This document shows, in pieces, positions 1,268 to 40,100 of a DNA stretch of 47,911 nt (position 1 is the first letter of the stretch; each line of letters opens with the position of its first letter). The notes beneath the pieces are model-generated. The model had not been told where the DNA came from, searched no databases, and was given only the letters and a program-made list of their open reading frames with translations. This DNA is from Plicaturopsis crispa FD-325 SS-3 (lineage: Eukaryota > Basidiomycota > Agaricomycetes > Amylocorticiales > Amylocorticiaceae), in the NCBI GenBank assembly GCA_000827205.1, contig KN832565.1, positions 31,546 through 79,456 of the forward strand. The letters run 5' to 3'. Position numbers and translations under genes: made by a program.

Positions 1268-2221
1268 TGCCTGTAGATTGCGTTGCGAGGAGCGTGATAT
1301 TCACGCTTCTGCACAAGTGAACAATATGAAGTCACGTACGGCTCACGCACGGTAAGGTTATGCAGATATGTGGGGAGCGAGTACAGAATGGCTACACGCA
1401 GGAAACAAGCGAAGACGGACGAGGATCTATGTACCAAAATTGACCATCGATCAACATACAAACCCACGGAGATGTACTATGTATTGGAACGCACGGATAG
1501 AGCACTGCGTTCCGTGCAGATTCCAGGGAGGGTAGAGCGACGTGGCGCTCCGAGATGTTTCGATGGCCTGCGGGAAAATAGATAAATGCAAAGTCCACGG
1601 AAACCATACAGCTGATACTCACAAGGAACTTGGAGTATGAATGCGTGCAGAACAGGACAGTGAGCACAGCGATCGCGGTTATCTATGCTGGTGTTTCGTT
1701 CGAGAGATCGTGAGCCTATGCCAGCCGTGGCCTCGTATGTCTGCAAGAAATCTTGTTTGTTTGTCGCAAGTCAAGTCGAGCAAAGGTAAGAGGACACGTA
1801 CGATCACTCAGCAAGACGCGAACCCCGCAGCTCTATTCACTAGATTATATTGTTGAAACATTGGCGATGCGCGTCGAAGCTGAACGTTTGCTGAACAGTT
1901 CGGAACGTCGTGAAAGGTCGTGCACGCAGGATTGGGACTCCGCGCATTTGAAACCACAGCTTCAGAACCAGAGCACTTTCAGCTCTCAGATCTCAGCGAC
2001 GGCCATGTTGGCGTCTTCGCAACACCCGGAAACTCTCTTTACACAGCACCAACCTACCCAAGCACTCGGACGCTGGACTATTGCTAGCTAAAAGTCTCGA
2101 AAACTCAACCCGATTTCATGTCTGTATTTTTCCGCGTATCATATATGTACCTACGCTGACGCTGGAAATTGGTATGCCAGTACTTCTTTCGTCCGTCGGA
2201 ATAATACAGGTCGTCGAGGAC
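1268..2221. other. Divergent intergenic region between an F-box and a BTB gene
   Basis: About 950 bp separate the divergently transcribed F-box gene (minus) and BTB gene (plus). Short open frames here lack any recognisable motif and look like chance. I see no TATA box, tRNA or repeat. The last 50 bp contain an acceptor-like AATACAG 15 bp before the BTB start codon, which may mark a 5'-UTR intron. Confidence 0.5.
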
Positions 2222-3241
2222 ATGGATATCGATACCCAAGCCGGCGCCCAGCTCCAGCGCAGTCCCGACGTGTGGTTCGATGACGGCAACGTGATCATTC
2301 AGGCGGGGTCCACCCTCTTCCGAATCTACAAAGGGATTCTCCAGGCGCGGTCAACCGTGTTCAATGACATGTTCTCGTTTCCCCAGCCGAGTGACCAGGA
2401 GTTGATGGAAGGATGTCCCGTGGTCTTATTTCACGACGCGGCACCCGATATGACAGTCTTTCTGAAGGCCATATACGACTCAGGGTGAGCCTCGTCGTCT
2501 GTTCATTGCGCAGACAACGCTAAGCTACCAACGGGCTCAACGACCTAAAGGTTTTTTGAGCGCCCATCGCAAACAAGCTTCTCCGTCGTAGCTGGTATCC
2601 TCAGACTCGCTACCAAGTACGACGTCGCATACCTTCGCCAGCGCGTCATCTCTCAGCTTGTCGAGATCTATCCACCCACCCTGGAAAAGTGGGATCAACG
2701 CTCCAACATTCCGCCTCTCATTTCCGATGCCGCTACCTCTCATTTCGCGCTCGTCAATCTCGCGAGAGAAACCGACGTGCCCAGCGTATTGCCTGCCGCA
2801 CTTTACTGCTGCTCCATGCACGGCGCGGAGGACATCATCGACGGCATCGTACAGCCGGACGGTTCGCGCTCGGAGCTGTCTCCCGCAGATATGCGGGCCT
2901 GCCTGCTCGCCCGCGAGACCTTTGCGCGCCACCCGCCGATGCTGGCATTCATGGCTGATCTCGGATTCATTGAGGGACTTATCGAAAGTCTCTGTGAGGA
3001 TCCGAATACATGCGTGAAAGACGAGATCAGCATCCTGCGCTCTTGTGCACTGGCGGAGAGGAGCTTCGACCTACTCGATGGCCGAGTGTTGACGAAGGAT
3101 GCGTCATTCGTGCACACCCTGTGTGATGAGTGTGCGGGAGCGATAAAATATGATTTCGAGCGTCAGCGCCTGTCGATCTGGGAACGTCTTCCCGCGCTGT
3201 ATGGCCTTCCGCCCTGGGAGACACTCTTGCAAGGGGCCTAG
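2222..3241 (+). CDS. BTB/POZ domain protein, first of a tandem pair
   Basis: Two exons, 2222-2484 and 2551-3241, encode 317 residues. The 66-nt intron starts GTGAGC and ends CTAAAG. The start at MDIDTQ was chosen because the paralog begins MDIQET and alignment starts there; an upstream in-frame ATG at 2174 exists. The BTB fold covers roughly residues 10-130: SPDVWFDDGNVIIQ, FRIYKGILQARS, FNDMFSFPQP and, after the intron, FSVVAGILRLATKYDV with YLRQRVISQL. The C-terminal half is the helical region usual for this basidiomycete family, with repeated cysteines near its end. By family, BTB proteins dimerise and can act as CUL3 ubiquitin-ligase adaptors; no MATH, Kelch or zinc-finger partner domain is present, so the role here is open. 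The neighbouring copy shows recent tandem duplication. Confidence 0.85.
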
Positions 3242-3801
3242 TGGTAGCCTCGCCACTTTCAAGGTAGGCCCCGTATCTCAATTTCGAAGATTACATCCCC
3301 TAGGCTAACCTCTATTTGGATAGTCCCAATGATGACACGTGTGGCTTGCTGGTCTGCTAAATTCGACACAGGTTCTCACTCGAATGTACATTGAATTGTG
3401 ATCAGTAGTGTTTGTTGTGGATGTGACCGTAGAAAACAGTCTATATGTATACTTGCATGCTCCGAATATATTCCTGACAGAAGGAAAACCGCTATATGTC
3501 GGACATGAGCATAATTTACCACCCAAGCTTCAATTCGGCATAAGTCACAATGATAATCGAAAATCTCGTATGCGTTGTTTGGTTCGCTCGGTGTAGCCAA
3601 ATCAACGCCACCCGGACCGGCTAAGTCACGGTCGACGCGCCTGTCCTTCATACGCTTTCATACGCGTTCAAGTTCACTTCCTACCAGTTGCACTGTTCCT
3701 AACGCCCAGCAACCCATAACGAGTCAAATGTATGTAGATCTGCATGCATGCTTTACCGCGGCTTCATGTGCTTACGTGTCTGTGCTGCAGCAGCCAATTG
3801 C
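3242..3801. other. Intergenic region between tandem BTB genes
   Basis: 560 bp between the two BTB genes. It is AT-richer than the genes and holds no convincing coding frame. A GTATGT at about 3729 and a CTGCAG at 3785-3790 could bound a 5'-UTR intron of the downstream gene; this is inference. Confidence 0.4.
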
Positions 3802-4822
3802 ATGGATATCCAAGAAACTGCAACTTCCCGCTCAGACACGGGTGGACTACAGCGCAGCCCCGACGTTTGGTTCGAGGACGGCAATGTAATCGTACAGGCC
3901 GAGTCCACGTTATTTCGAATCTACAAGGGGATACTCCAGGCGCGGTCGAGCGTGTTCAACGACATGTTCTCATTCCCTCAGCCAAGCGACCAGGAGACTA
4001 TAGAAGGGTGCCCCATAGTTCTGGTCCACGACTCAGCGCCTGATATGGCCGTCTTTTTGAAGGCGATATACGACTCAGGGTGAGCACGTTTACTCCTCCT
4101 TTTGTACCAAGACGCTCAGTTGGTCTACAACCCGAAGGTTTTACGAGCGCTCTTCGCAGACGAGCTTCTCCGTCACAGCCGGTATCCTGAGGCTTTCCAC
4201 CAAGTACGATGTCGCGTATCTCCGCCATCGCGCCATCCACCAGCTTAGGGATGTCCATCCCACGACTCTCAAGGAATGGGACGATCGCACACACATACCG
4301 TTGATCTCTGATGTCGCGACATCACATTTTGCGATTGTTAACCTCGCCAGAGAGACCGACGTACTCATGATCCTTCCCGCTGCACTGTACCGCTGCTCTA
4401 TGCACAGTGTGTCGGACATATTCAACGGTCTCGTGCAGCCGGACGGCTCCCGTACGGAATTGTCCCAGACGGATAAGCTTCTGTGCCTCAACGCTCGCGA
4501 GTGTTTTGCATGTCACGAGCCAATGCTAGCCTTCATGGGTAACCCCGACTACGTGGCCGACTCGCTCAGCACCCAATGGTGCGAATCCCGAGTTGCGTGT
4601 AGCCTTGAGATAAACGTGACGAAAGTGCTGCGTGCCTATGCGGAGGCCGAGAAGAGCATTGACTTGCTCGATGACAGTCATTATCCCATCGATGTAGCGG
4701 ACGTTGTGGAGGATCTATGCAAAGAGTGCGCCGCGTTATTCAGGCGTGTCTTTGACAGCAAGCGTGAGCAGGTCTGGCACACCCTTCCTGGTTCGTTCGG
4801 ACTTCCGCCCTGGCATTATTGA
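3802..4822 (+). CDS. BTB/POZ domain protein, second of a tandem pair
   Basis: Exons 3802-4079 and 4138-4822 encode 320 residues. The intron is in exactly the same codon and phase as in the upstream paralog (after YDSG), with donor GTGAGC and acceptor CCGAAG. The BTB core is nearly identical: SPDVWFEDGNVIVQ, FRIYKGILQARSSVFNDMF, FSVTAGILRLSTKYDVAYL. The C-terminal region diverges more (for example YVADSLSTQWCE against FIEGLIESLCED), but both end in a motif reading GLPPW near the C-terminus. This pattern suggests purifying selection on the BTB core and freer change in the C-terminal half. Likely role as for its neighbour: dimerisation and possible CUL3 adaptor function, inferred from family only. 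Frame is intact throughout. Confidence 0.85.
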
Positions 4823-4999
4823 GTTGCAAGGACACCGTAAGCAAATCGTTATTATTGCCTGTCCTACTTAGCTAATCCTCTTGCTCTTGGCATTCAGACA
4901 CGACAATGATAGAAGTTGTATTATCTAGCGAGCAAAAATGCACTGACTACCATGTACTGCTAGCACAACCAATGTCTAGCCTCTCTTACACATGCTATA

Positions 5000-5766
5000 T
5001 CACCAGTTTGTGAACATGACCAAGCGAGGGCAGTGATAAAGTGCCAAATGAACTCTCTGCTGGAGCCAGACAAGGTCAGTGCCGCTGGGCAGGCTTTCGC
5101 GATCCCATTTTACCACGAGACGTTCAAGGGGACATCCTGCAGCAATACGCGATGCGACGAGCTCAGTCGGCTTGTCTTCCTCGGTCGGATAATAAGCTTC
5201 GAGCACGAGAGATCGTAGGCGCGGCCAGGGTGGGTTCGTATCGCTCGGGAGTCGCTCGAGGCTCGCCGTCAATGACGAAAGATGATGTGTGACAGCTTGG
5301 GCTACGACAACAGCGTGCGTGATGCTGGGAAACGCGCGCACAAGAATCGGCGTAGGCTCCGCGCCGATGAGGTGCAGGGTGCGGATACGCGGGAATGGGT
5401 CATGGCCTTCACTGCATCGAGCCTGGATCCACGTCGCAAATTGGTCAAGTTGAGCGGGATGCGCATAGTTGAGCTTCAGGCACTCGAGCGCCGGGGTGAG
5501 AGAACTTGCACCACATGGGTAGTGGGCAGTAGTCGTTAGGCTGCCAAATGCCGCGAATTTCGAGCGTCTCAAGCGACGGACGGTACGGTGATAGCGACTG
5601 AAGGTGTGTTGTAGAAATCGAACCGTTTGATGTCGACGACGAGCTCTTTTAGCGAATTCGTTTGAGCCAGCACTTCGTGAACCAGCGCAAAGGAGGCTTT
5701 GAGGCGAGGACACACGCGGGAGAGCTTGAGCACTGTAAGCGAGCTGTATATGGACAACTAGGAGGA
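5000..5766 (-). pseudogene. F-box/LRR gene fragment, broken 3' copy of the next gene
   Basis: The segment matches the C-terminal half of the F-box protein encoded at 5846-7261: LTVLKLSRVC, LKELVVDIKRFDFYN, DPFPRIRTLHLIGAEPTP, LSSLTASLERLP, PPWPRLRSLVLEAYYPTEEDK and LQQRVHLALYHCPRLV all have close counterparts there. The F-box and the first 200 or so residues are missing. The matching stretches lie in three different frames: the part ending AITVPS, then SLETLEIRGIWQPND, then LTPALECLKL, so at least two frameshifts separate them between about 5510 and 5580. A 237-codon frame (5000-5713) remains open in the last part. I read this as a partial tandem duplicate that has decayed. An expressed short protein cannot be excluded from sequence alone. 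Confidence 0.75.
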
Positions 5767-5845
5767 GTAGAAGTAAATGAGCGCATGTGTGATGAAGGCA
5801 GAGAGAAACGTGTACACACGCGGGACAAATGCATTCTGACCTATC

Positions 5846-7261
5846 TCATCCTGTCAAGGATGTATGCTCGCTTGCGCGGTCAGACAACTCGCCGAAGTTC
5901 GCGGTACTGACCAAGCGAGGGACATGGTAAAGCTCCAAGTGAACTCGCTGCTGTAGCCAGCCGAGGTCAGCACCGTTGGGAAAGTACTGTCGGTCCCACC
6001 GCACAACAAGACGCTGGAGAGGACACTCTGCAGCGATGCGTGCTGCAACGAGGTCCGAGAGCCTGTCTTCCTCCGTTGGATGATAAGACTTGAGGACTAA
6101 AGATCGTAGACATGGCCATGGTGCGCGCGTCTCGCCGGGGAGTCGCTCGAGGCTCGCCGTCAGTGATGAAAGATGGAATGTTGCAGTTTGGACTGCTACG
6201 ACGGCGTGCGTGATGCTGGGAAATACACGCACGAGGGCAGGTGTAGGCTCTGCTCCGTGAAGGTGTAGGGCGCGTATCCGCGGGAACGGATCGCGGCCAT
6301 TGTCGAGTTGTGTTTTGAGCCACATAGCAAAGCGGTCAAGCTCTTCAGGACAAGCATTGCGGAACTTCAGACATTTGAGGGCCGGCGTCATGATGCAGGT
6401 GCAGACCAAGACTAATCGAGTGTACAGATCGTGTCGTTGACGGATCCCACGGATGTCGAGAGTTTCGAGCGATGGGACTGTGACCGCAGCGCGGGCATCC
6501 CAGAAGTTGAATCGGGCGATGTCGATGATCAGCTCCTTCAGTGACAACATACGGGCGACCACCTTCTGGGCCGTACCGATTGAGCCCTCCTCGTCGTCGG
6601 TGCATCCTCGGGAAAGGTTAAGTACCGTGATAGATTCGAACGTGCTGGCGGGGAGACGGCATACCGAGAAGGTGTCCCCTGCGAAGTTGAGTGATGACAA
6701 GAGCGGGCAGCCACCCTTGAATATGCTGATGCGTCGCGACCTCGTATGACGGCCCATATTGATATCTAAGTGGCGAAGATTCGGAGCATGCAACGGGGTA
6801 AATTGACGAAAAAATGGTCTTGGGTCAAATTCATCATCGTGGCCATAGTATTCTTCGTCGATGTATGCACGGATCGTGAGCGATGACAGCCTGTCGACGT
6901 TGGCAAGAATCCTCTCGAAGAACTCAGCTGAATCAATGTTGCACCGGATGTCTAGTAGGCGCGGGCGGGATAGTTCGAGATGGAGGTCAAGGAGGTCAAG
7001 CGGGTAAGAAAATTCCTCCTCGCTTTGGACGTGACCAGACCGATTCCAAATGCGAGTCCAGAGAACAGAGTAGCTGAGAGCGATGTGGCGCCAGCGCCGC
7101 GAGACATGCGAGACAATGACTGATGACGGCAACATCCACGGCGAATATAAAGGATCGCCGTACGAGAATATTTCCGCCAAGATCTCGTCGGGACAGTGCG
7201 AGATGGGTGCGTGCTCAGAGTCAGAATTCGCATGAGACTGCGGAGCGTCCAACGTATGCAT
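5846..7261 (-). CDS. F-box/LRR-like protein
   Basis: Single coding exon of 471 residues starting at the ATG at 7261 (MHTLDAPQ). The F-box lies at about residues 20-65: ISHCPDEILAEIFSYG, VIVSHVSRRWRHIALS, LWTRIW. Leucine-rich segments follow, such as LRHLDINMG, ITVLNLSRGC, LKELIIDIARF and LRSLVLKSYHP. A 5'-UTR intron is likely at 7282-7337 (donor GTAAGT, acceptor CTCTAG), a position also occupied by introns in the paralogs at 8131-9531 and 10500-11876. Family knowledge predicts Skp1 binding and a substrate-receptor role in an SCF ubiquitin ligase in nucleus or cytoplasm; the substrate is unknown. Its own 3' half is present again just downstream as a decayed fragment. Frame is intact and ends at a TGA. 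Confidence 0.85.
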   Translation of the reverse strand: MHTLDAPQSHANSDSEHAPISHCPDEILAEIFSYGDPLYSPWMLPSSVIVSHVSRRWRHIALSYSVLWTRIWNRSGHVQSEEEFSYPLDLLDLHLELSRPRLLDIRCNIDSAEFFERILANVDRLSSLTIRAYIDEEYYGHDDEFDPRPFFRQFTPLHAPNLRHLDINMGRHTRSRRISIFKGGCPLLSSLNFAGDTFSVCRLPASTFESITVLNLSRGCTDDEEGSIGTAQKVVARMLSLKELIIDIARFNFWDARAAVTVPSLETLDIRGIRQRHDLYTRLVLVCTCIMTPALKCLKFRNACPEELDRFAMWLKTQLDNGRDPFPRIRALHLHGAEPTPALVRVFPSITHAVVAVQTATFHLSSLTASLERLPGETRAPWPCLRSLVLKSYHPTEEDRLSDLVAARIAAECPLQRLVVRWDRQYFPNGADLGWLQQRVHLELYHVPRLVSTANFGELSDRASEHTSLTG

Positions 7262-7337
7262 GATACCAGTCGGCGGTATCACTAGAGTAGAGAGTCAGTA
7301 ATGAGATAGAATACAGAAACACTATTTGCCTACTTAC

Positions 7338-8130
7338 TAGATTGGTATTTGTCTTGTTGACTTAATTCACGTCGAAGGCAATGCGGCTGCAAGACACTGT
7401 TTCTGTCGGTGATGGGTGAATGCAACTTGGCCCGCTATGAACTCACGGTTACAATAGTAACACGCAACCAGCCGTGCAGTAAGCGTGGAGCTTAGGACGC
7501 TTTGCGAATGTTAGATCGAATTAATGTGTTTTGTTGTCGTTGAGCAAAGCGACTCTGTAAATGAGTGAGCAGCGCGAGAGCAGGGCTTCGCGGCGTCCGC
7601 GAAACGTGGACCGCGGTAAGGGGCTTTTTCCTTCTCTAGCGATGCTGCCCCTGTCTCATTTTCTACAGTCCAATTCGTCCCAAAATCTCGCCGAAGACCA
7701 AAGCGCTGACAATAAATGAGGACAACGTTGGACGCAATGCAACGTCAGCACTACTCACTCGTGTCTCTCCCAGGCATCTTGGCGAGACCGTATCGAGAAG
7801 CGCAGGCTGAACGACAACCTTGCGATCTGATAGCGGCAGTGAGGTGCGGTATAAGGCCGTATGCCTCGGCGAGTCGTAAACATAGGCTCGACACAGCACG
7901 AGGATCCGTTGACATGTGTATTTCTGGGTAGAGGTAGATGTGCAAGAAACATGGCGAAGAAATCATAAGCGAGGCACGGTAGGACCACATGTGATCGTTG
8001 CGCGTCAACTTGCTTTCGTTCCTCGCGACCGTCATTGGCAATGCACGATCGCTCTGTCCATGTTCGTTACTAATTGGCGCCTGAGATATTGAACAACGGG
8101 AGACGCTCACCATACGCAACGCGATCACCG
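7338..8130. other. Intergenic region with duplicated 3' flank
   Basis: The part from about 7900 to 8130 is the 3' flank of the F-box gene at 8131 and is repeated, diverged, at about 10330-10499 next to its paralog. A landmark is the block AAATCATAAG(C/T)GAGGC in both. The rest (7338-7900) shows no gene, RNA or repeat that I can support. Confidence 0.5.
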
Positions 8131-9531
8131 TCAAGGCCAGGAGCTCGTGAGACCGAGCCAAACGCGCTCGCGGAGCCAGGCCACACTTTCGCCCGAGGGC
8201 AAGAGCGACTCCTGGCTTTTCAGGGATAGATACTGAAGGGGTACAGTCCCGCCGCTGAGACGGGGGCTAACAATCGTAGAGAAGTCCGTCGTCCGCAATT
8301 CTGGCGCGTAGGTTTCGATCTCGAGAGCTTGGAGTCGAGGCCAGAGAGGGCGTGAGAGTTCGTCGCTTTTACTGAGAAGGAGGATGTCGTTGTCGAAAGT
8401 AGGAGATTCCCGCAGTGTCACACAGTCGACATTAGGGAAGGTGCGCATCAGACCTTCGGTGAGCATGGTCCTTTCGAGCGTCAGGGTACGCAGGTTGACA
8501 AATCTTGTCAAGGGCGGCGCATACTGCGTGAAGGTGTCGAGCATTGAATATTCAACCGAGCGAAAGACTACCTGCTGCAGTGATGGCATATAGAATACAG
8601 TCAGTGCCGCCAGGAGATAGTAGAAGTCGGTTTCGTCAAGCTCGTAGGGGGGCTCAATATCGATTGTAGTGGCGTGAGGAAGAAAGATCGCACGGTGCAC
8701 GCCAACGACCGGTGCGGGAAGGAAATTGATCGGGCAATTGGTTAGATTTAGCGCTTTCAGTGTGTTGGCGGCCCCCAAAACTGTCTTGATCTGGGGAACA
8801 GTGACGTGACAGGGTGCACCTGAAGAAAACTTGGAAGTCTCGCCGATGTGCAGCATCTCCAGAGATAGTAACGGCGTCGGGAAAGTGCACACGGTCAGAA
8901 GGTGTCCACTCAGCACGAGGATAGATAGCTTAGGCAAGCCACCCATGAACACAGGCCAAGACTTGTCTAACAATCGGTCTGCATCCACCTCGACGTCGAC
9001 GTGAAGGAATTCGAGGTGTGAGAGGTTGGGGGCGGAGAGGTTGGCCCAGTCATGCAGCATTGTGGACCAGACATCGTGGACTACCAGGATGGACCAGCGG
9101 TGAACGTCCGGGATGAGCCTGTCGAAGAATTCGTGGGCTTCATACCAGGTTTCTATCCTCAGGAGGCAAGAGCGCGACCTTGCGATGTGAGCGTCCAGGA
9201 GGCCAGGTGGGTATGCATTATATAGATCACGACCGGAGTAGATGTTGGTCCAAAGCATAGGCATGCCAATCGCCACCGCGCGCCAGTAACGCGAAACATG
9301 TGAGACCGTAACATTAAATGGCAGAGAGTTGTCGCTAAACTCAACCCGGCCAAACGAAAATATCTCCCCGAGTATCTCGCTCGGAAGCGACGATATAGGG
9401 GCCTTTTCGCGGCCGGAGGCGCTGCTGAGTGCGAGCGTACTGTTGGGCGTGCATTTGGCACCCTCGTCGGGCCGCGATGAACGCAGCGCGAAATCGGAGT
9501 CGTCGGGTGCGACCTTGTACTCCTCGGGCAT
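8131..9531 (-). CDS. F-box/LRR-like protein, copy 1 of tandem duplicate
   Basis: One coding exon, 466 residues, ATG at 9531 (MPEEYKVAPDD). The F-box is at about residues 40-90: ISSLPSEILGEIFSFG, VTVSHVSRYWRAVAIG, LWTNIYSG. Later segments (LSHLEFLHVDVE, LKALNLTNCPINF, FVNLRTLTLERTML, WPRLQALEIETYAP) are degenerate leucine-rich repeats. A 5'-UTR intron at 9560-9632 (GTCAGT to CTTGTAG) has a counterpart at 11893-11963 in the paralog. The protein aligns end to end with the one at 10500-11876, with matching motifs such as AWLRERV near the C-terminus. Expected role: substrate receptor of an SCF ubiquitin ligase; substrate unknown. Frame is intact, and the last residues differ from the paralog, so the exact C-terminus or a small 3' intron is uncertain. 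Confidence 0.85.
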   Translation of the reverse strand: MPEEYKVAPDDSDFALRSSRPDEGAKCTPNSTLALSSASGREKAPISSLPSEILGEIFSFGRVEFSDNSLPFNVTVSHVSRYWRAVAIGMPMLWTNIYSGRDLYNAYPPGLLDAHIARSRSCLLRIETWYEAHEFFDRLIPDVHRWSILVVHDVWSTMLHDWANLSAPNLSHLEFLHVDVEVDADRLLDKSWPVFMGGLPKLSILVLSGHLLTVCTFPTPLLSLEMLHIGETSKFSSGAPCHVTVPQIKTVLGAANTLKALNLTNCPINFLPAPVVGVHRAIFLPHATTIDIEPPYELDETDFYYLLAALTVFYMPSLQQVVFRSVEYSMLDTFTQYAPPLTRFVNLRTLTLERTMLTEGLMRTFPNVDCVTLRESPTFDNDILLLSKSDELSRPLWPRLQALEIETYAPELRTTDFSTIVSPRLSGGTVPLQYLSLKSQESLLPSGESVAWLRERVWLGLTSSWP

Positions 9532-27828: not shown

Positions 27829-30240
27829 CGTGCTCCATTCTATCTTTTCCCGTCGTTTAATCTTTTGCTGGGTTTTATTACTTCTTACGCGTTTGTGTGT
27901 CCCTTGCTTGTTCAGGCGTCTTTCCCGACCCTCCGACTCTCCTTACCCTGGCCTATGGTGCCCTTGTCCACTGCTGTTCTTCGTGCAAATTATGCAATGT
28001 TTTTTTACCTGTACTGTTCTGCTCTATTTCCTTACGCTCACGCCTTTTAGACGTGGTTTCTTGATACTGCTCACGGTCAGGTCCCACCCTCTTTTTCCCC
28101 GCTCTCGCGCCTGTTCATTCTACTCATCTATTTCCTGTATACCCACATTGGAACGAAGAATTCACCCGACTTGATTTTGTTATTCCCCTTCATGCGTGGT
28201 GTGGCCATGGCATATTCTAGGTTACATCTTAGGTCCACATTTCCCTGTAGCAAATTATGGTTTAAATAATACAGGTGTTTCGGTGGAAAGGTTGAACGTT
28301 GAACTTTGAGGGACTGCGCAGGGGACTGTGTGGAACGGAACGGCCAGCGAAAGGCTGGATCGTATATGTGACGTGCGAACACTCGGAGTGGGATCCCCAG
28401 TGAGAAACAAGGAATCGGGATTCTCGAGGAAACAAGGACAGTTTTGGATATACTTGGAAATGTGAGAATAAGTTCGCGTCTTCGACTCTTCGTCGCCACT
28501 GCTTCGCCAACAGAGAAAATGCTATAGGAAACTACATTCGGCCCCGCACAGTCTCCGTAGGACAGCGAGACCTTCCACAGTACAACGCCTTCCAATCCAG
28601 GTGTCGATGGTCGTCAGTAGACAAGGTGAGACCGTGTATCGGATCGCTATGATAGAAACGCAGGAACGTTGGGGTGAAGTGGAGTAGGCGTTGCGATTGA
28701 ATTTGACAAATAAGGCCGAACCGGTACGGATTCGTGACGAGCGCCAACTGAGCAGCGGGGACTTGACAACAATCACCACGCCCGTTCTGCACAAAGGGAT
28801 GTATTAGTATGTGTATGAGCGGATAAAAAATTTCGGCGGGGATTGGACGAACGTTTCATGCACGAGTTGTTCCCGACACTGTGGCCTCCAGGGCTGTGGC
28901 GGGAGATGCACTCAGGATGCGAGCGACCGTGGAATAGCGGGTCCGCCCTCGGACAGTGTACGGATGGCAGGCCGGGACGAGAAGAGAGCGCAATGCTGTT
29001 GTCGCAGCTGTGTGATCCAATGTGAATTCCTACGCGGAAATCTTGCTCGGGGATTGCGATCCATATGCTTTGACACATTGGACACGAAAAAAATGCCAGG
29101 GAAGGCACGAGGGGTATGCACAACGAAGCACTGCTTGTTAAATCATACGCAGATAAACTTAGAACAAATGCATCACAGAGAAATCAGCGACGCGTGAGAT
29201 ATACAACGTCAAGGACAAGTTACCTTTCGCGAGAGAAATCGACAAGCGATCAATATACTCTCATGTTGTAATATTGAGAATTCGCGACTTCTAGTGCGAG
29301 CCGTGGATGCAAGACTTACTGGGGCTGCAAGCTGAGACAAACATTGCTAAGTCCAGTAGCAAGTACCGTAATGTTCGGTCGTAAACGCTCAGTCTACCTG
29401 GAAGTGCTTATTTAGATGGGAGATTCAGTGAATAAAAATCATGACATTCGCACCTCAAACAATTTCACTGTCTCGTAGTCCGACAGCGCGGGACTGACAC
29501 GAACATCGGGAATCCCACTGGAAAGCGCAGATGTGGCTGGCTGGTGAAAAAAGAACCATCAATGTGGTTGATGTCACTAGCTTGAGAGAATATTTTATCC
29601 AAGTCGAGCCGGTGGGTACAACTATCACTTCTCCCTTGGGGTTACAATGTAAGCTCCACGCAAAAAAGGAGGTGAGGACGGACTGGAAGAGCGCACGTCG
29701 TATGCTACCAGGCCAGTTATCACTTCTCAGCCTTGCGCAGCCCTTCCAGTATCTGGAAATATTGGCGTCGAGTCCAAGATGCGATGTCCAGCGTCGATGT
29801 TCAACGTTCCAAACGTTGGTTCAACACAAGTTCAACGCGACAGAACGCGACTCAGAAACCACGTTGGCAAAATCGCGGAGTACGAACTTTATGGCGGCGT
29901 TCAACAAGTGGCGGGCACCCAGGGCCAGTGGCGACTGTTCTCGTCTCTGAACTCGAAGCCTTTGAAATTTGAACTTGCTCGCTCTCGCCCATGTGTCGAC
30001 AATGATCAGTCAAACAAGCTGAGTGAACGACATCTGAAAACCTTGGAAAACTTCGCCGTGCAGGATCTCTGGTGTGTCTTCAACCAGGACGACATTGGCA
30101 CCCAAGCTGAAAACGAAGCAGGATATATAAGCGCGCCGTCGTCCGAGTTGGGCCCGCCAAGGACTCTCCTAAAGCCCGTCGTACCCTATGCGAGTGTGTA
30201 GTGCATGAACACATCAGCAATCTCGCATTTTTCTTGCGCT
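27829..30240. other. 2.4-kb region without a supported gene
   Basis: The first 300 bp are T/C-rich and look like the 3'-UTR of the large disordered-protein gene. From about 28150 on, short frames on both strands lack recognisable motifs. The right part (from about 29700) has several CAAC/GTTC repeats and merges into the left flank of the transposon; the left end of that element may lie within it. Confidence 0.4.
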
Positions 30241-30280
30241 ACTTTTGCCACTTTCGAGCTTGAGGAAAGAGAGTAAGTAG

Positions 30281-30346
30281 GACAAGAACGACAAGCTATC
30301 AAGCTCAAGTAGCTCAAGTCGAAAAAGTAAGACAAGTCAGCAAGTT
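30281..30346. repeat. Left subterminal CAAG repeat cluster
   Basis: Seven CAAG tetramers in 66 bp, mostly as GACAAG, TCAAGCT or CTCAAGT, just outside the transposase stop codon. The right side of the element carries the complement. Confidence 0.55.
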
Positions 30347-30388
30347 AGATTATCATGGTTAGGTAGGCTATCACTACGTATACGAAAA

Positions 30389-33300
30389 TCAAGATAAAAA
30401 TTCATGAACATGGTGATCACCGTACTTGTTAACAAAGTAAGCGTCGAAGGAATCCAAAGTATACGAGAAGTGGAAATCTTCAGGAAGAAATTCGGAGCCA
30501 TATACACCCATGAGATGCGCGGCGCGGATGATACAGTCCAAGTGAATGACCGCCATAGAACGGCGTCGACCGCGTCCGTGTCCCGTATATTCTGGTCTAA
30601 CCACCCACAACCCCGTATCCTCATCCGGTGCATCATCCTCTGGGACCAACCACTCGACGAGAGCGCAAGGGTAGGATTCGTTCTCGAACGTGAACGAGAA
30701 AAAAAGACGAACACGCGCGATGGCCATTCCAAGCATTCCGGGTAGATCGGGATCAGTCTCGACAAAGACAGTGTCGCGGCGCTCGTGTTCTCCCCTCCAG
30801 AGTGGTATTGATCGTATGCGTTCCCGGTGCATGCCGCCGGCCCCGCAGACATCACTGGGAGAATAAAAGCGAGCAATAGCTGAGTGAAATACAGAAACTC
30901 GTCCAGAAAAGGAGGGGCAATCGTCGAGGGCAATATCAGATGAGGGGGTCCGAGTCGGCGAGTCGGGATGTATCTGGTCAAAGAGGAAGCGGCGTATAAG
31001 TTCAGGAAGGTGCGGCTGATCGATCTGGGTAGCGAGGTCATGGAGATATGGTTTGTAGTTGCGCGCTAGTACACGAGAAATGGATAAGAACACGGTCAAA
31101 TGCAAAGACGTCGCAATCTCGTACCTGGACTATGGGCTAACTCGACAGCTGCCATGACTCGAGGCCCCGTCACAGGACCACATTCCTCGTCACCCTCGTC
31201 TTTCTCCGCAGTGTCCTCAACGGGAACCGGTGGTACAGGCTCTTCTCCTGCGAGCATACGTGCTGTGTACGAAGTCGTCGACCCCTCCATCATTCCCCAC
31301 CGTGCAAATACACTGCGCGCCGCTCTGAGCTTGTCCATCCTGAAATTGATCCGAAGCATCTGGACGAGGGCCTTGAACTTGCTAGATCGACGCCATGGGG
31401 CCTTGACCGCTGTGATATGCTTGGACTCCGTGATTGAAGAGCAGAGTCCGTTAGGCGATCCGAAGAGAATGATTGAGCGCAAATAATGAACGAGAGCATG
31501 TTGTCGTGGGAGTGATATGACGTCGACGCGAACACCGGTATCTATGAAAACTTGGCGATACTGGTGAAAGCGGCCAAGGGCTTCCTCGATTTTGACGAGG
31601 TCCGCTGAGTCAATTGAGTTCCGCCGAACTAGGTAACAAAAGTCCAAGAATGCGGCGAGGCACTTGACCATCGCGGGCGGCACATGGCCTGCAATAGCGG
31701 GAAGATAAACCTGCGAGCCGTGGTGTTATGTGAGTTGAGTGTGACTACGCACTGGCACGGCGGTGAGTCGGCAGAATGGCATACCTTCATCAAGGCCTTC
31801 GAGTCATCCCCCGTCCATTGTGTGAAGTTACGACCCTGAGGAAACCGTCGCAATCCCGGGAAGGCAGGTGCCGCAGCAATTCTAGAGTAGAATGAGTTAT
31901 ATGGACCACTTGTCAAAAAATGACATACCGCCGGTCAATGTCATCAATTATCTGGTGCGCACGAGCTTCCCCATGTTCTACATGGAGGTACTGATTCACC
32001 CAGGTCACAATATGATCTTTGAATGTTCCCTTGATAACTTGATGGAGCAAGTCCGAGCACAGAAGTTCGTGAATGTCCGCCCGCGGAAATTCATGCGTAA
32101 AGGGCTATTGAGAAGGGTTGAGTGAGTACGGTGATATACATAGACATGAATGGACTAACCACAACATCGCAGCGGATGCCAAAATCATCCCACAGGATCC
32201 CCGGATCAAATATGGTGATCAGGAAGTCCGTTTTGCCATGAGAGCGCCGTCGGGAACCTTCACGATCAAGATTGTTCGGAGGCGCATCACATCTGTGTAC
32301 TCCGGTCAAGATGCATTCATTTAGACAGTAGACAATTCTTACTTCGGGCACCACCCTGAGACTATCCCTGAGAGCCAAACCTGTTCAGGATAGTCGGCAA
32401 TGTAAGGACCGAGACCATAGATGGCACGGCGGAAGTGCCCATCGGGGCAGCGGATGACTTCAGGCGTGGTCATGCCCGGCTTCAGTGGTAAGAACACTTT
32501 AGCGAGGCATGCGTGATACAGCTGGCGGCAAAACTTCTGATACTCGGGTCGCTTCTGATGTTTCCTCGAAGCTGCCCAGTGTGATCACCATGAGATAAGT
32601 CCAGACGTCGAGTGAGAAATCACAGCCTTACTTTTTGGAATGGGGAGAAACGCGACCGGTAGAACGGCATTCCCGTGTGCGCGACGAGCAACATTTGAGA
32701 AGACACCTGGGGACATGTACACGGGATGGTATTCTTGGTGGCCCGTAGCGACAGAGCATGTAGTCTTGTCGCTGCCCGCTATGACGGGCACAAACATCCC
32801 ACCCTTCGTCTGCGGATCTTGCGCAATCGTGTCCTGCGCAATAAATCAGTTTCATGCAATATCTTTCGATACACGGCACACCTTACCGCTTGCTTCCACG
32901 CCCAGTCTGCGGACATCAGATTTGACCATATGCGATTTCCGTTGGGGCCAAATTGTTGGTAAGGGACGTAGTGGGTCTCGCCATGGTAATCGGTCGCGGA
33001 AAGCTGATTTCGAAGGACCACATTTGCGTCGCGTGTGCAGAGCTCATACGTCTCAGTCATCCATTTGGGTGGGATCCCAGGAGGACGAGGACCCTCATAG
33101 TGGATTTTGTACGTGTGCCAAGGGGCATCCCCATGCTGAATACGGTCAATCGTAGCATATAGCTGTGAGGCGTTGTTCCACGGAGCATTGCCACCGTATT
33201 GGAGAACAGTCGCAGCCCACATGTCGAGAGCAGCATTGATTTGGGATTCAGAGCTCTTCGCCTCCACGAAGTGATGGTGCGCGAAATCGAACTCGATGCG

Positions 33301-33653
33301 TGACGAAAACGGACGCCACGCATCATGTGCAGGCGCGAAAGGCGGCGGGGGCGGCGCAGTGTGAGGGGCTAGATATGTACCGTGTTCATCGCACGGAAGA
33401 GCTGCGCAGAAACGATCAGCTGTTAGCAAGTGCGTGGAAAGCCCAGACACTTACCATTGAGGTGGCGATGATAGCGGTATTGGAACCTTGGGGCCTCATC
33501 ATCAGAGTCCTTTGAGGAGTCCGATCCTTGTGAAGGCTGACGGTGGATAGCGTTGCGGTGTTGGGTGAGACCCCGGGAAGACTTGAACGAGGCATGGCAT
33601 TCTTGACAGGTATGTGTTTTTGTTCGGGAATTATGCGGCCAAGGCATGGGCAT
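30389..33653 (-). CDS. Plavaka transposase
   Basis: Nine exons (33455-33653, 32887-33401, 32632-32833, 32343-32571, 32160-32292, 31929-32104, 31785-31881, 31125-31710, 30389-31065) encode 937 residues with every junction in frame. An N-terminal C2H2 zinc finger (Cys16, Cys19, His32, His37; CQECHASF) is followed by conserved Plavaka blocks in order: AALDMWAATV, DWAWKQA, GSDKTTCSVATG, CPDGHFRRAIYGLGPYIADY, ILWDDFGI, ADIHELLCSDLLHQVIKGTF, GLRRFPQGRNFTQWTGDD, FCYLVRRNSID, FGSPNGLCSSITESKHI, and C-terminal PGMLGMAIARVRLFFSFTFE with AYFVNKYGDHH. This matches the transposases of the Plavaka lineage of basidiomycete cut-and-paste elements (RNase-H-like DDE fold, usually grouped near CACTA). It acts in the nucleus on the element ends. 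A second ATG at 33647 is an alternative start. Confidence 0.92.
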
Positions 33654-33808
33654 GCAAGAGAACGAGACGATGGTATGATGTGAGCGGCACTGCAAAGCAG
33701 GAAACGTTAGAAAGTGTGGCACCGCAACAAACAAACATATACATTTACCTCCAGCAAGTCGCGACAAGTTTCTCTTTGCCGTCTGCTACCTGTGCTCCTC
33801 TACATCTT
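33654..33808. promoter_or_regulatory. Divergent promoter of the transposon
   Basis: Only 155 bp separate the start codons of the transposase (minus) and AT-hook gene (plus), so both must be driven from this stretch and their leaders are short. No clear TATA box was found. Confidence 0.55.
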
Positions 33809-36539
33809 ATGGCAGCTGCACGCCGCACGTCTTCGCGCATTAACGCTAGGTCCGAGTTGACATCAACATCACAACAGGCCCCGCCGACAGTGGACCCGAC
33901 ACCTGCTAGCACGGTCACGAATCCGTCAAAACAGCGTGGCGGCGCAAAGAAACGCGAGCGCGCACCTAGTGCACCCAAGCAGCCTGCAGATGAGGCCGCG
34001 GACGGAACTAGCCACCCGCCTGCTAAGAGAAACAAGCAGGGAGGGGAACCTTCGGAAGCAGGCACCAAGCGTCCCCGAGGACGTCCTCGCAAGGATGCAG
34101 CTAGGCCACCTAATCATACGGAGGTCGTCATGCAGGGTCTACATTCTCCCCCCAACCAGCCCTTGACTCAGCACAGTCCGAGCGGCAGTACACAGATGGC
34201 TACGACTACATCACCGGTGGAGGACATGCCACCCCCAGCGGCAACTAGCGCAGAGTTACCTCCCACCTCGCCACCAAAGTCGGCGAAGTTTCGAGGAAAG
34301 GAGATACCGTCCAGGTCTCCCCTCCCCGACCGTGTGAAGCGCGTTCGGAACCCTGCCGCGCCCCAGCTGCCGCGTCATAAGCGGACCTCCGCTGAGATGC
34401 GGGAGCTCGAAAGGCAGCAGCAGGAGCTCCAGCAACAAGCGGAGATGCTGAATCAGAAGAAGATGATGATGGCGGCGCAGATGGAATTGGAGAGCGAGCA
34501 GCAGGAGGCTGAGGAGGATGAATCATTGGTTAAACACATATCCGAGGTTCAAGACCACACTGCCAGCACTCACGGTTATGGAAATGTTGCTCCGTTTGAA
34601 CCAGACGACGACTTCACTGCACCAGACGACGATTTCACGGCGCGGACCGACAGAGAGATGGATCCCCATCTCGGCCGGGAGTTTTTGGCGAGGGAAGATG
34701 CGGACATGAGAGATGGGACAGGTGAATTGGTGGGAGACGATGATCCTGACTCGGAGAGCGACAACGACAGAGATGCAACACCTGCGAAGGGGAAAAATAG
34801 CAAAGTAGGTTTTCAGTTATGTCCCGATTTGTTGTGTGAGATACTGACTAACCCTTGAAAATGCAGGCCAAGAAGAAAAAGCCGGTGAAGGGGGAGACAC
34901 GCTCAGCGCTGGATGCCATGAAGGACACGGCTTTGAAGGAGTTGTCGATGAAGACGCCGGCGTCAAAAGGCAAGGCAAGGTCAGTACAATCAACAATCAT
35001 GATAACTCCCACGCTCACTTCCCATTTTGATCTGTTTTCACGTCGCAAGCACTGTTCCCAAACCAAAGGCCACTGCTGCTCGATCGTCAGGTCTCGTACG
35101 CGATTGGAGGAACAGGGTGCATGCAGTAGGATCCGAAGCTAGTTCCAGCAAGACGAAGCCTGCCAAGCCTGCCTCGGACGACGACACGCTGGGACTCGGA
35201 GGTTTAGATGACGACGATGCCAGCGCAGTTCGACCGCAGTTCAGCACTCAGGCAGGTCGCAGTAGGGACCGAAACAATGAGGCATGTTGTTAGATTAGTT
35301 ATTTGCATTATACGGAGCTAACAGCTGCTTTGTAGATGGTAGGTTTTGTATCGGACGGTGAAGAATCCGAATCGTATCAGCCAAAGACGCCCAAAACGCA
35401 GGGTGCCATCGCCACCGCTGGGCGTGTTGCGAGCTCGAAGTCGAAACCATCTACCTCAAAAGCGAAAGCTCCTTCCGACGTGCACACCTCTGGAACAACT
35501 TCACGGACTGTTCCGTCGCATGTGCCTTCCGACTCAAGTTCATCTTCCTTGGTAACGCAACGCTCCCTCTCACGACTTCCCCAGTGGGCTCAGGCCGACT
35601 GGAACGCAATCTTTCTACCCATGCTATATTCGTATCTGGGCAGCTTGGATAACCCGTGGCTTCTGCTAAACGAAGGAGACCGCGACTGTATTCCAGAGCT
35701 TCAAGCGATGGTTAATACCTGCTACCCAGAGATTGCATACCGTGTGCGGTTCAACGATGGCATATATCTCACAGTGAGCTTCCCGGTATTCTTCTCGTAA
35801 CTCCGTGCACGCGCTTACTCGCCGGATCCCAGGCAAAAGACAGAGTTAACGATAAACGGTGCTGGTTCGGTCGGCGCGCAATCGCGATTCTTGAGAAACT
35901 TTTCAAGACAGCCGAATACAACGGGAAGCCTTCCAAGATAGCGGCATATGCCCAGTACGCTACCCGTGGCGACGGTCCTGCAATCTATGGTATTCCCGCT
36001 CCGTTCCACTGCGCCGATCGCAAGTCTCGGGAGTATACGGTACGCTATGAATCAGCCGTTGAGCCTGCCCCATGCCTAAGCTGATTTCTCGCATATAGCT
36101 CCCGCGCGACCTCTTCGAGTCACCGTATATCCTCGAGCTCCTCGCGGGTTACTTAAATTTCATGAAGGCATCCGAGATAGACTACGACGTACCGCGGGGC
36201 GCTCTCGCCCTGGCGGCAACTGCGGTAAGTGGCTTCAATGTATCTGTCGGTGATTCGTCCTAAAGATTGGCAAAGATTGAAAGGGCATTCACAATGTATC
36301 ACACCGGGAAACAGGTCCCTTTGGGCCAATTCTCTCGGGACAAGACTCAAGATCTTGTCAACGACTACATGGTCAGTATCCAGAAGCTGTCCGACCGGCG
36401 TTGGAGCAGCATTCTCGAGAAATGTGGGCAAGCTGTAGGGCCTCCGAAGACAATTGCCCCTGCCCTCCAACACACCCGTCGCAATTTATACGTCCCGCCG
36501 AGCAGTCCCATTGCCGAAGATGAAAACTCAGATCAATAG
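33809..36539 (+). CDS. AT-hook, coiled-coil protein with basidiomycete C-terminal domain; transposon passenger
   Basis: Seven exons (33809-34804, 34867-34979, 35050-35281, 35336-35773, 35833-36039, 36099-36224, 36276-36539) give 791 residues. A basic N-terminus contains an AT-hook, KRPRGRPRK, at residues 87-95. A glutamine-rich coiled coil lies at about 195-240, a small tandem repeat PDDDFTA follows near 270, then acidic patches. From about residue 525 an ordered domain begins: LPQWAQADWNAIFLPML, YRVRFNDGIYLTAKDRV, GRRAIAILEKLF, KIAAYAQYATRGDGPA, RGALALAATAIERAF. I recall this domain in many Agaricomycete hypothetical proteins but cannot give it a sure name. The AT-hook suggests binding to AT-rich DNA. 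Its place inside the element hints at a transposition helper or silencing function. The intron at 35282 has a GC donor. Function unknown. Confidence 0.8.
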
Positions 36540-36861
36540 CTTTTCGGTCACTGCGGTATGTTGTCTGCTCCTACCCTTTTGTTCTCGCACGCATGCTTAA
36601 CTTATGACAGATCATCGCGCGATCTCGAACCCGACTCACCAGCTCATTCACACACGCCGTGACGTCGTCGACTCGCTCGGAGCATTCCACCACCATAACT
36701 ACATTCAGCCCCGCTTACACTCCTTTTAATTCGTGGCTTGCGCAGCCGCCATAATTTGCTTATCTTTCATCGACTCCTTACTTGCACGTCCTGTCGTTCA
36801 TTGAGCCTTCGCCCATAATTTTACTGTACAGCCCGGCTTTGATCTTTAATGAAATCGATGC

Positions 36862-37070
36862 ACTTTCTTGACTTGGACACTTGGAAGCTTGGTGACTTAT
36901 GCGACCTGCGCGACTTACGGGCACTTGCGACTTTCCGAGAGCAAGATTGAGAGGAACTTGACCGAAAACAGACCTAGCTTTCAGCCTTGCGAACTTTTTC
37001 ACTTTTTACCGCTGAAATGACTTGCGCAAGCTTGTGCAAGCTTGCACAAGCTTGCACAAGTGCTATAAGA
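36862..37070. repeat. Right subterminal CTTG repeat cluster
   Basis: Eleven CTTG tetramers in 200 bp, in the opposite sense to the left cluster, ending in a near-perfect array of the unit GCAAGCTTGCACAAGCTT, whose AAGCTT cores are palindromic. It abuts the XPF gene. Confidence 0.55.
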
Positions 37071-37143
37071 AATTTGTAAGATTACTGATGCATATCCTAC
37101 CCCAAGCGAGAAGGACCGTTGTCAGGCTGTGCCCGTGAACGCG

Positions 37144-40100
37144 ATGGATCCTGAAAAGCCTCAAAACTTACTCCCATTCCATGAATCCATAATCTCGCAG
37201 ATATGCGACCCCTCTACCAGCGAGCTCCTTCTTCTTGCGCGTGGTCTTGGTCTGCGGCGCGTCATATGCACCCTCATGAAGATATACGACTCGCCGAAGA
37301 ACCTTGTGCTTCTCGTGAACGCCACGCCCGAGGAGGAGGCAGCAATGGGCGAGGAGCTGGGGATTATGGGGTGTAGGAAACCTGGGCTAAGAATCGTTGG
37401 ATACGAGACTGGCAAAAAGGATAGGCAAGTGTTCCTACACAGTCGCATGGAAAGCCTTTTGACGCGACCGGTGTTTGCAGGCAAGACCTATACCACAAGG
37501 GCGGCCTGATATCTGTTACCTCGCGGATATTAGTAGTCGACATGCTCCAAGCCGACATCCCTATCGACCTCATAACGGGCATCATCGTCTTACACGGTGA
37601 AAAGTATGCACCGATTGTCCCAATTGTACTATTTTAATGTCGCAATAATTGATTACGGCCCTACGAACAGGGTAACGGCGCTTTCTCTGGAAGCTTTCAT
37701 CGTGCGCCTATATCGCGAGAAGAATAAAGATGGCTTTCTCAAGGCCTTTTCGGACCAACCGGAACACATCACTAGCGGAATGTCGCCGCTCAAGAATATC
37801 ATGAAGGAGCTTCAGCTCCGCACCGTCCACATATATCCTAGGCAAGTTTAGTGCACGACCTTTTCGTTCTCGCCGGGCGTTTACGGGTGTCAGCAGATTT
37901 CAGGAAGAAATCAAGCAGTCGCTAGAAAGACGGAGGGCCGATGTGATTGAGCTGTATCAGCCCATGAGTGAATCGATGGAAGCTATACACTATGCCCTGG
38001 TCCAGTGTATCACAACGACCCTCTCAGAGCTTAAACGCTCGAACACAACTGTAAGACTATCCTCTAGTGCTGGGAAAGCTTGCTTACCAGGTTATACAGC
38101 TTGATCTTGACGACTTCAAAGTCGAAAATGTGTACTTCCGCTCATTCGACGCGATTGTCCGGCGACAGTTGGATCCCGTCTGGCATAAAGTAGGCCCAAA
38201 GACCAAACAGCTGGTTAACGATCTTTCTACGCTCCGTCGCCTACTGAAGTAAGCCTGTTCGTTGGCCGCCGTCTCTTTTATCTCACGAACCTCTGCAGTT
38301 ACCTCCTCACTTACGACCCGCTCGCATTCCATGCCTACCTCGAAACTCTCATTGCCGCAAACTCGACGGGTCCCTCGGGCGGCGTCAAGCAGCACCAATC
38401 ACCGTGGCTCCTAACCGACGCGGCCAACGTCATATTTCAGGGTGCAAAGCGCCGCTGCTACATCACAACCGCGAAGCCGCAACCTACGCGTGGGCCTGCC
38501 GACGATGAAGATGCATGGGACGCGCTGGACGATGTACATGGACGCGGTGTGCCTCTACCCAAAGCCAACCCTTACAAGAGAAAGGCGTGGGTCCCTGAAG
38601 GCATGGATCCAGTACTCGAAGAATTGCCGAAATGGTCTCTGGTGACGGAGATACTGAACGAAGTCGAGGGGGAGATCATCCGGCAGGAGTCTCCCGCCTC
38701 CACAGGGCGCGCGGGTGCACAGGTCAGAGGCTCGAACACTGTCCTTGTGATGACGTCGTCAACGCGCACGGCCACCCTGCTCAGTGAGTTCCTGTCGACC
38801 ATGGACACCACCGCGAAACCGGGGTCCCAAGGGCGCAAGATGATGGAACAGAAGCTGCGGCTGTATCTATGGTGGAAGGGCAAACTCAGCGAACGGAAGC
38901 AGGATGGTCGAGCGCCCTTTGGACTCCCGAATAAGGATGGCCAGAGGAACACGCAAGCTGAGATGAGTGAAGCGATGAAGAAGAAGGACCAGGCTACGAG
39001 GGAGCGGAACGCGAGTCGGCGTCGGGTCAGAGGCGGGGCGCCGTCTGCAACTGCATCAGGCAGCCGTGTCAAACCAGAACAAGTCGACTCCGCACTGGGG
39101 GAGGGGGAAATGCGCGACGAGGCGGAGAGCATTGCCGATTTGTGGGCTCATTTGTCTGGTTATATTCTTGCGTAATTGTTCTCATTTACATCTATCTCAG
39201 TCTCGCCACCCAAGGGGAGACCCTGCTAATCGGCGACGAGCAAGTGGTGCTGGACCTTACCTCGGATGACTTCGACCTCGAGTTCGATGCGCACTACGGG
39301 CTGCTGGCTCCAGAGCAGACTGTGCTCGTGCGCGCGTACTCGGACGACACGGACGACCAGATGCTCTGGGAAATCCAACCGCGGTTCATAATCATGTTCG
39401 AGCCGAACCAGGACTTTGTCCGGCGTGTCGAGGCTCGTATCTGCTTTTCCTCATTTTACGCTTTTTTGCTAATGTGGGCTACGCATCGTAGGTCTATCGC
39501 AGTCTAAGCCCTGGGCTCGGTGTGCGGGTGTACTTCATGGTGTACAAGGACAGCTGCGAGGAGCACAAGTACCTCGCAGGTATCCGGCGCGAGAAAGAGT
39601 CATTTGAGCGGCTCATCAAAGAGCGTGGGGTTCGTTGCCTGCTCCTCTGTTTTGCGAAAAACCGTTTTCGCTGACGCGACGGGTCAGAACATGCTTCTGC
39701 CCATTTTCGAAGACCGTACCACCAGCGAGGGCGATGCCATGATCAAAACTATCAGCACGCGCATTGCAGGGGGGCGGAAGGAAATAAGCAAGGAGCCCTC
39801 TCGGGTAAGTTGCCAGCCGGACGAGCCCCAAATCAGTATTCACTTAGTTGTGGTTTGCATAGGTGATCGTCGACATGCGAGAATTCCGCTCGACCCTGCC
39901 GTCGCTTCTGCACGCCGCGAAGCTACTCGTGATTCCTGCGACGCTCACGGTCGGCGATTATATTCTGACCCCAGATATATGCGTCGAGCGCAAGAGCATA
40001 CCGGATCTAGTGTCGAGTTTCAATAGCGGTCGCTTGTGAGCCACTCGGTGAATTATCGGTTACTACGATTGACGTTGCTGCTTCTTGCAGGTACACACAA

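Follow-up and report, generated by a model that had tools for sequence, protein, structure and literature searches.

The contig KN832565.1 of Plicaturopsis crispa FD-325 SS-3 carries a Plavaka transposase gene and, in the opposite direction, a second gene whose product has an AT-hook. This raises the question whether both genes belong to a single transposon and, if so, what the second protein contributes to it. In the following, the window denotes the whole analysed stretch of 47,911 nucleotides, and plain coordinates refer to positions within it.

Extent of the element

The interval 30212-37090 (6,879 bp) is one Plavaka transposon that encloses the transposase gene and the divergent second gene (Table 1). 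Its ends were sought with the pattern published for the PlavakaB type, namely termini CATCA..TGATG and a target-site duplication (TSD) of 2 or 3 bp (Kojima 2025, PMC12730594; accessible text). In the inverted-end search, the pair 30212/37090 was found to be identical at 19 of 25 positions with CA on both sides, compared to 15 for the runner-up pair, and the termini agree with the PlavakaB type. The preliminary description had assigned 30245-37070 to one element; the assignment holds, while the true span is slightly longer.

The terminal inverted repeats (TIRs) are imperfect, which suggests that the element is not very young. No close copy was found in the same genome, in which the matching parts of related copies share 65-77% DNA identity. 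The element is thus the sole member of its own family in this genome.

The right end of the element is separated by 53 bp from the ATG (37144) of a downstream gene (window 37091-37144). The first exon of this gene matches the XPF DNA repair endonuclease (PDB sequences, E 0.003), which places the insertion just upstream of a coding region.

Table 1 Features of the two-gene element in the window
Feature	Position	Strand	Remark
Left target-site duplication	30210..30211	.	CA
Left terminal inverted repeat	30212..30236	+	CATCAGCAATCTCGCATTTTTCTTG; 19/25 identical to the inward-read right end
Left subterminal stretch tested	30242..30661	+	9 inward CAAG
Plavaka transposase gene	30389..33653	-	9 exons, 937 aa; weak N-terminal C2H2 zinc-finger match
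Interval between start codons	33654..33808	.	155 bp
Second gene	33809..36539	+	7 exons, 791 aa; DUF6532-related
AT-hook	34067..34093	+	KRPRGRPRK, aa 87-95 of the second protein
DUF6532-like C-terminal domain	35570..36518	+	over exons 4-7
Right subterminal stretch tested	36641..37060	-	13 copies of CTTG on the + strand, i.e. inward CAAG
Right terminal inverted repeat	37066..37090	-	+ strand ending TGATG
Right target-site duplication	37091..37092	.	CA

The two genes

When rebuilt from the sequence, the transposase gene forms a single frame with 0 internal stops, interrupted by eight introns, each 47-74 bp long and bounded by GT..AG. The 937-aa product covers model positions 1-325 of 325 of PF18759 (E 1.2e-123, 412.9 bits, curated cut-off 26.3), in line with the intact transposase over nine in-frame exons that had been noticed at first inspection. 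The N-terminal C2H2 match is weak and falls below the cut-off. The candidate motifs GSDKT (258), CPKC (380) and ITESKH (610) were assigned by eye, against the patterns DD..E, C(2)C and H(3-4)H.

The start codons of the two genes, 33653 (-) and 33809 (+), lie 155 bp apart, the spacing stated in the preliminary description. Its account of a divergent seven-exon gene with an AT-hook and a domain of unknown function is likewise confirmed: the 791-aa product carries the hook at residues 87-95 and ends in a DUF6532-like C-terminus. In the frame-consistent gene model, intron 3 has a GC donor (GCATGT, 35282-35287). The N-terminus of the protein is basic and of low complexity and is followed by a coiled-coil-like stretch (both assigned by eye).

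The C-terminus matches the DUF6532 model PF20149 with an E value of 2.6e-4 and 21.4 bits, which is below the 24-bit cut-off. Among hand-spliced relatives of the window clade, 6/6 match PF20149 (E 2.3e-6 to 0.032), one of them above the cut-off. These scores point to a diverged relative of DUF6532 that falls short of formal membership. A Myb, SANT or MADF domain was not detected in the second protein by Pfam matches at E up to 1, and none of the solved structures matches its domain by sequence. Based on small alignments, no direct profile-profile link was found between the second proteins of clade 1 (the window type) and clade 2, nor between DUF6532 and DUF6698, so that clade 1 is tied to DUF6532 via Pfam matches alone. 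DUF6532 and DUF6698 are Pfam families for which we know of no function.

The second gene had been introduced as an AT-hook gene. The hook is real in the window but does not define the family: a clear canonical hook, (K/R)RGRPRK in a long frame, was observed in 2/17 second genes examined (the window and L018), the survey covering 17/19 second genes without L036 and L037, in which the gene was not reassembled. The GRP-type matches in L029, L030 and L033 may or may not be AT-hooks. The AT-hook was therefore rejected as a conserved signature, whereas the DUF6532-like domain is general. Motifs of the form K[KR]x[KR] occur five times in the second protein of the window and 0 times in its transposase. 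Over all copies this contrast is weak, with 3 motifs in 14,175 transposase residues, near chance by a rough estimate, and the motif is absent in 3/6 other second-protein N-termini.

Pairing of the two genes in other copies

The genome searched comprises 33.2 Mb in 49 contigs. Plavaka loci were grouped into at least 23 core loci and at least 12 distant, weaker ones; these numbers are lower bounds, because the search scores best candidates only, and the short C-terminal fragments C2:3582497 and C23:145127 were left out. We read 21 of the at least 23 core copies, i.e. the window and 20 others, mostly as 10-kb stretches. Outside these 21 are the core copies C17:99k and C7:1664k; in the latter, the 3.1 kb examined upstream contain no second gene, a stretch that may be too short to tell.

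A second gene was found in 19/21 core copies read and is divergent every time. L026 shows a divergent N-terminal-like frame only (by eye), with an N stretch about 1.1 kb further on. In L027, whose sequence turns to N at about 9.2 kb, a second gene was not detected. With the second protein of the window as query, four places were found, all adjoining a Plavaka copy. The DUF6532 model yielded 17 loci (our own clustering of 39 hits). A core Plavaka copy is present within 5 kb at 12 of them, in divergent orientation at 11, compared to a chance of 0.7% per locus. An iterated profile of the window-type domain added L022-L025, which the six-frame Pfam search had missed; three of them were also spotted by eye. 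Since nearly all related copies read carry the same pair, the second gene seems to serve the transposon as a dedicated helper and not to be a chance neighbour.

The remaining DUF6532 loci are C17:94847, near a core copy but on the same strand, C5:1954897, near a contig end, and four far from any core Plavaka. Lone copies or fragments therefore exist, as 5/17 loci are not divergently paired and one more is near a contig end. Such loci, together with the lack of a known function for DUF6532, would suit a passenger gene without part in transposition. We regard this as improbable, given that 19/21 copies retain the gene, always divergent, with correlated distances and amino-acid constraint (see below), and that a CATCAGGAAAA end lies 0.77 kb downstream of the lone locus C5:300551, as the remnant of an element would show.

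Ends and target-site duplications across copies

End pairs of the other copies were sought with CATCAG-like patterns, and one scan also scored TSDs. L018, L022, L025, L034 and L038 have one no-mismatch end candidate per outer side, while end placement involved a choice in L020, L023, L031, L032 and L035. Nine of the 21 copies lack one or both ends in the stretches read and were excluded from the TSD count (L019, L024, L026, L027, L028, L029, L030, L033 and L037). Both ends could be placed in 12 core elements; each of these contains both genes and is flanked by a TSD of exactly 2 bp. CATCAG is present at the left end in 12/12 and at the right end in 10/12 of them, the right end of L032 and L035 being CATCTG. 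When the distant element L046 is included, the 2-bp TSD is found in 13/13 elements, with a 3- to 6-bp match in 0/13 (3 bp: 0/13). The comparison with copies in the same genome, as proposed in the preliminary description, thus delivered termini and 2-bp TSDs with both genes enclosed in 12/12 cases. The view that both genes lie within one element is upheld by TIRs and TSDs outside both genes in the window and 11 further core copies.

Other Plavaka copies that end between the two genes would speak against a common element, as had been pointed out beforehand. No TSD-supported end of this kind was found in any copy. L036 has one exact CATCAGCAAAA between both genes (L036:2737, minus strand), for which no duplication matches the left end; its outer end pair is identical at 25/25 positions and shows an AG/AG duplication. 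In L024, a one-mismatch end site lies between the two genes; 38 one-mismatch end sites were found in total, with about 8 expected by chance.

The flanks of different elements share no similarity (12/13 could be compared, with one or both flanks exceeding 80 bp), but the interiors match in 25/78 element pairs, indicating separate insertions and not segmental duplications. A host AT-hook gene beside which a Plavaka element happened to insert was also considered. The nearness of two independent genes in the window is all that would favour it; in view of a TIR and TSD outside both genes and of homologous divergent pairs at 19 loci, its probability is negligible, and it was rejected.

Several structures were observed in passing. 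The only match between flanks was found within L018 (element at 1553-8151), whose two flanks resemble each other over 115 bp (78% identity). The Plavaka element C7:282850-299482, one of the 12 core elements above, reaches 16.6 kb because its genes are about 11 kb apart; its ends and a CT duplication still match. An element of 1,784 bp with CATCAGGAAAAA ends and an AC duplication (L033:2153-3936) is nested in the Plavaka region of C6:617k, and no clear subterminal motif was found in this 1.8-kb element.

Genome-wide, CATCAGSAAAA occurs 285 times, compared to 24 times for the reversed control (12 times as often). Among the first 100 matches listed, neighbour pairs within 10 kb are directed inward in 28 cases, outward in 4 and the same way in 6; 22/28 of these inward pairs span 1.5-3.4 kb. 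These spans suggest that the genome contains many shorter, probably non-autonomous relatives of Plavaka.

Subterminal repeats and co-divergence

Repeats were counted in bases 31-450 from each end and compared to 400 dinucleotide shuffles. CAAG was the word named in the preliminary description, and GTAG emerged from scanning the elements themselves; since both were chosen after seeing the data, all p-values for words are descriptive. In the window, inward CAAG was counted 9 times on the left and 13 times on the right, i.e. 22 against 7.1 expected (p = 0.002). The reported CAAG and CTTG clusters do face each other, but their orientation is not pure. CTTG in the opposite orientation (2 + 5) is rarer than CAAG, yet also above the expected 1.9 (p = 0.002), so that the arrays are mainly, not purely, inward.

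CAAG is enriched in 5/6 clade-1 elements (p ≤ 0.005, the exception being L025 with p = 0.21), and clade 2 shows nominal enrichment in 1/6 (L034, p = 0.037). GTAG is enriched in 5/6 clade-2 elements (p ≤ 0.03, the exception being L036 with p = 0.085) and in 0/6 elements of the window type. The reverse word CTTG is enriched in the window, L022, L023 and nominally L034, and CTAC in L038, so the orientation is a tendency. Judging from these counts, the subterminal motifs appear to be clade-specific, either CAAG or GTAG.

The distances between transposases and those between second proteins are correlated over 17 pairs (r = 0.88, p = 1e-4), with values of 0.96 and 0.92 within the clades; L036 and L037, with the second gene not reassembled, were omitted. 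Nearest neighbours agree for 13/17 pairs. The amino acid sequence of the second gene changes faster than that of the transposase in 9/9 pairs. Five of the nine pairs are saturated. The other 4/9 have a dS below 2, and for them the second gene shows a dN/dS of 0.12-0.16 (components 0.12/0.99, 0.18/1.13, 0.24/1.77 and 0.27/1.84), values that are rough because dS is 1.0-1.8. The second protein is accordingly constrained yet faster-evolving, and the accessible texts describe CACTA binding proteins (PMC2613891) and the MADF proteins of PIF elements (PMC9710019) in the same terms.

Proposed role of the second protein

The element is an autonomous-looking, two-gene, EnSpm-like cut-and-paste transposon, and we consider it fairly probable that its second protein is an accessory subunit of its own transposase for end recognition, assembly or delivery and that it binds the subterminal arrays. 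In favour of this are the location of both genes within one element, the joint movement of the pair, the co-divergence, the amino-acid constraint on the second gene and the clade-specific subterminal words; the presence of a clear AT-hook in 2/17 second genes examined speaks against it. The transposase would recognise and cut the CATCAG ends and join them to the target, giving rise to the 2-bp duplication. The second protein would bind the short subterminal repeat arrays, the transposase or both, and would be needed for transposition; it may also deliver the transposase, compare TNPA of CACTA and the Myb-like protein of PIF/Harbinger. The layout suits this accessory role: repeat arrays lie at both ends, the partner is specific to the element and has basic stretches, and the two genes diverge from an interval of 155 bp. 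The co-divergence does not reveal whether the repeats go with the transposase or with the second protein, and the transposase, which has a zinc-finger-like motif of its own, could bind them alone.

A regulatory role is less likely, but deserves consideration. As far as the source is accessible, the binding sites of VANC proteins are dense arrays of short, equally oriented motifs, and the proteins evolve together with these targets (PMC5735166). By analogy, the second protein might act as an anti-silencing or regulatory factor that binds the motif arrays at the ends and keeps the element expressed, outside the transposition complex. Short, mainly one-orientation arrays in non-coding ends would suit this role, as would a word and a protein that are both clade-specific and the faster change of the second protein in 9/9 pairs. 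The near-universal presence of the gene in the core copies read and the co-divergence suit a core subunit at least equally well, and the role of an accessory subunit remains our preferred reading.

The distant lineage

L046 (G000:C5:1100701-1108745) is an element of the distant Plavaka lineage with CATCAGGAAAAA ends and a TC duplication. No DUF6532 match was found in it, and part of the element reads N. A downstream gene on the same strand matches DUF6698 (PF20414) in two frames (E 2.8e-24 and 7.1e-11). Six of nine DUF6698 loci, including one below the cut-off, are no more than 7 kb away from a Plavaka locus of the distant lineage, compared to a chance of about 0.5% per locus. Their orientation is mixed, three being on the same strand and three divergent. 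Within 15 kb, 0/9 DUF6698 loci have a core copy and 0/17 DUF6532 loci have a copy of the distant lineage.

These data, which include one distant element read and, for partner exclusivity, one genome, allow a broader but tentative reading. Plavaka may be a modular superfamily, with every lineage of the transposase tied to an exclusive partner, a divergent DUF6532 protein in the core lineage and a DUF6698 protein in the distant one. Both DUFs could then be subunits for end recognition or delivery, and the principle known from TNPA and the Myb-like proteins would have been invented independently once more.

Comparison with known systems

In the open-licence PMC literature, no description of a pairing of DUF6532 with Plavaka was found; as Repbase and the founding paper of 2014, outside this scope, may describe second proteins, novelty is claimed tentatively. 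Within the same literature, as far as accessible, DUF6532 was found only in a domain list that also names Plavaka and KDZ. No mention of DUF6698 was found there, nor of Plavaka joined with a second ORF or of KDZ with an AT-hook. Plavaka is also mentioned in PMC8955403, PMC9674265 and PMC11244446 (accessible portions). The terms AT-hook and subterminal are absent from PMC12730594.

Taken together, the members of DUF6532 and DUF6698 in this genome can largely be placed as transposon genes. With its ends defined, a TSD of 2 bp and a layout of two genes, Plavaka becomes open to annotation that recovers whole elements. The system further allows transposase, partner and subterminal repeats to be followed as they diverge together.

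VANDAL elements are found in plants and have a Mutator-type transposase. Like the element described here, they encode a protein of their own and bear motif arrays in their non-coding parts (accessible text of PMC5735166). PIF/Harbinger and Nuwa elements are alike in consisting of two genes, a transposase and a Myb/SANT/MADF protein (PMC9710019; for Nuwa PMC12730594; both as far as accessible). Their second protein is described to interact with the transposase and to be required for its nuclear localisation; in Harbinger3_DR, the Myb-like protein also binds a 9-bp subterminal motif (PMC9710019, accessible part). These systems differ in their transposase family, and the second protein of the window has no Myb/SANT/MADF match.

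PlavakaB shares the PF18759 transposase, the CATCA..TGATG termini and the 2-bp TSD with the window element. It differs in gene content, as the accessible text describes the transposase, joined by a TET/JBP gene in some families, and names no DUF6532 or DUF6698 partner (PMC12730594). According to the same text, Plavaka transposases are recognisably similar to those of EnSpm. CACTA/EnSpm elements are thus alike in the published relationship of their transposase clade, in their subterminal arrays and in having a second protein: for En/Spm, TNPA is known to recognise the subterminal repeats (PMC2613891, accessible text), and binding by the second protein here would be analogous. They differ in that TNPA and TNPD arise from alternatively spliced transcripts of one gene region, whereas here two separate genes are read divergently, between CATCAG ends that are flanked by a TSD of 2 bp.
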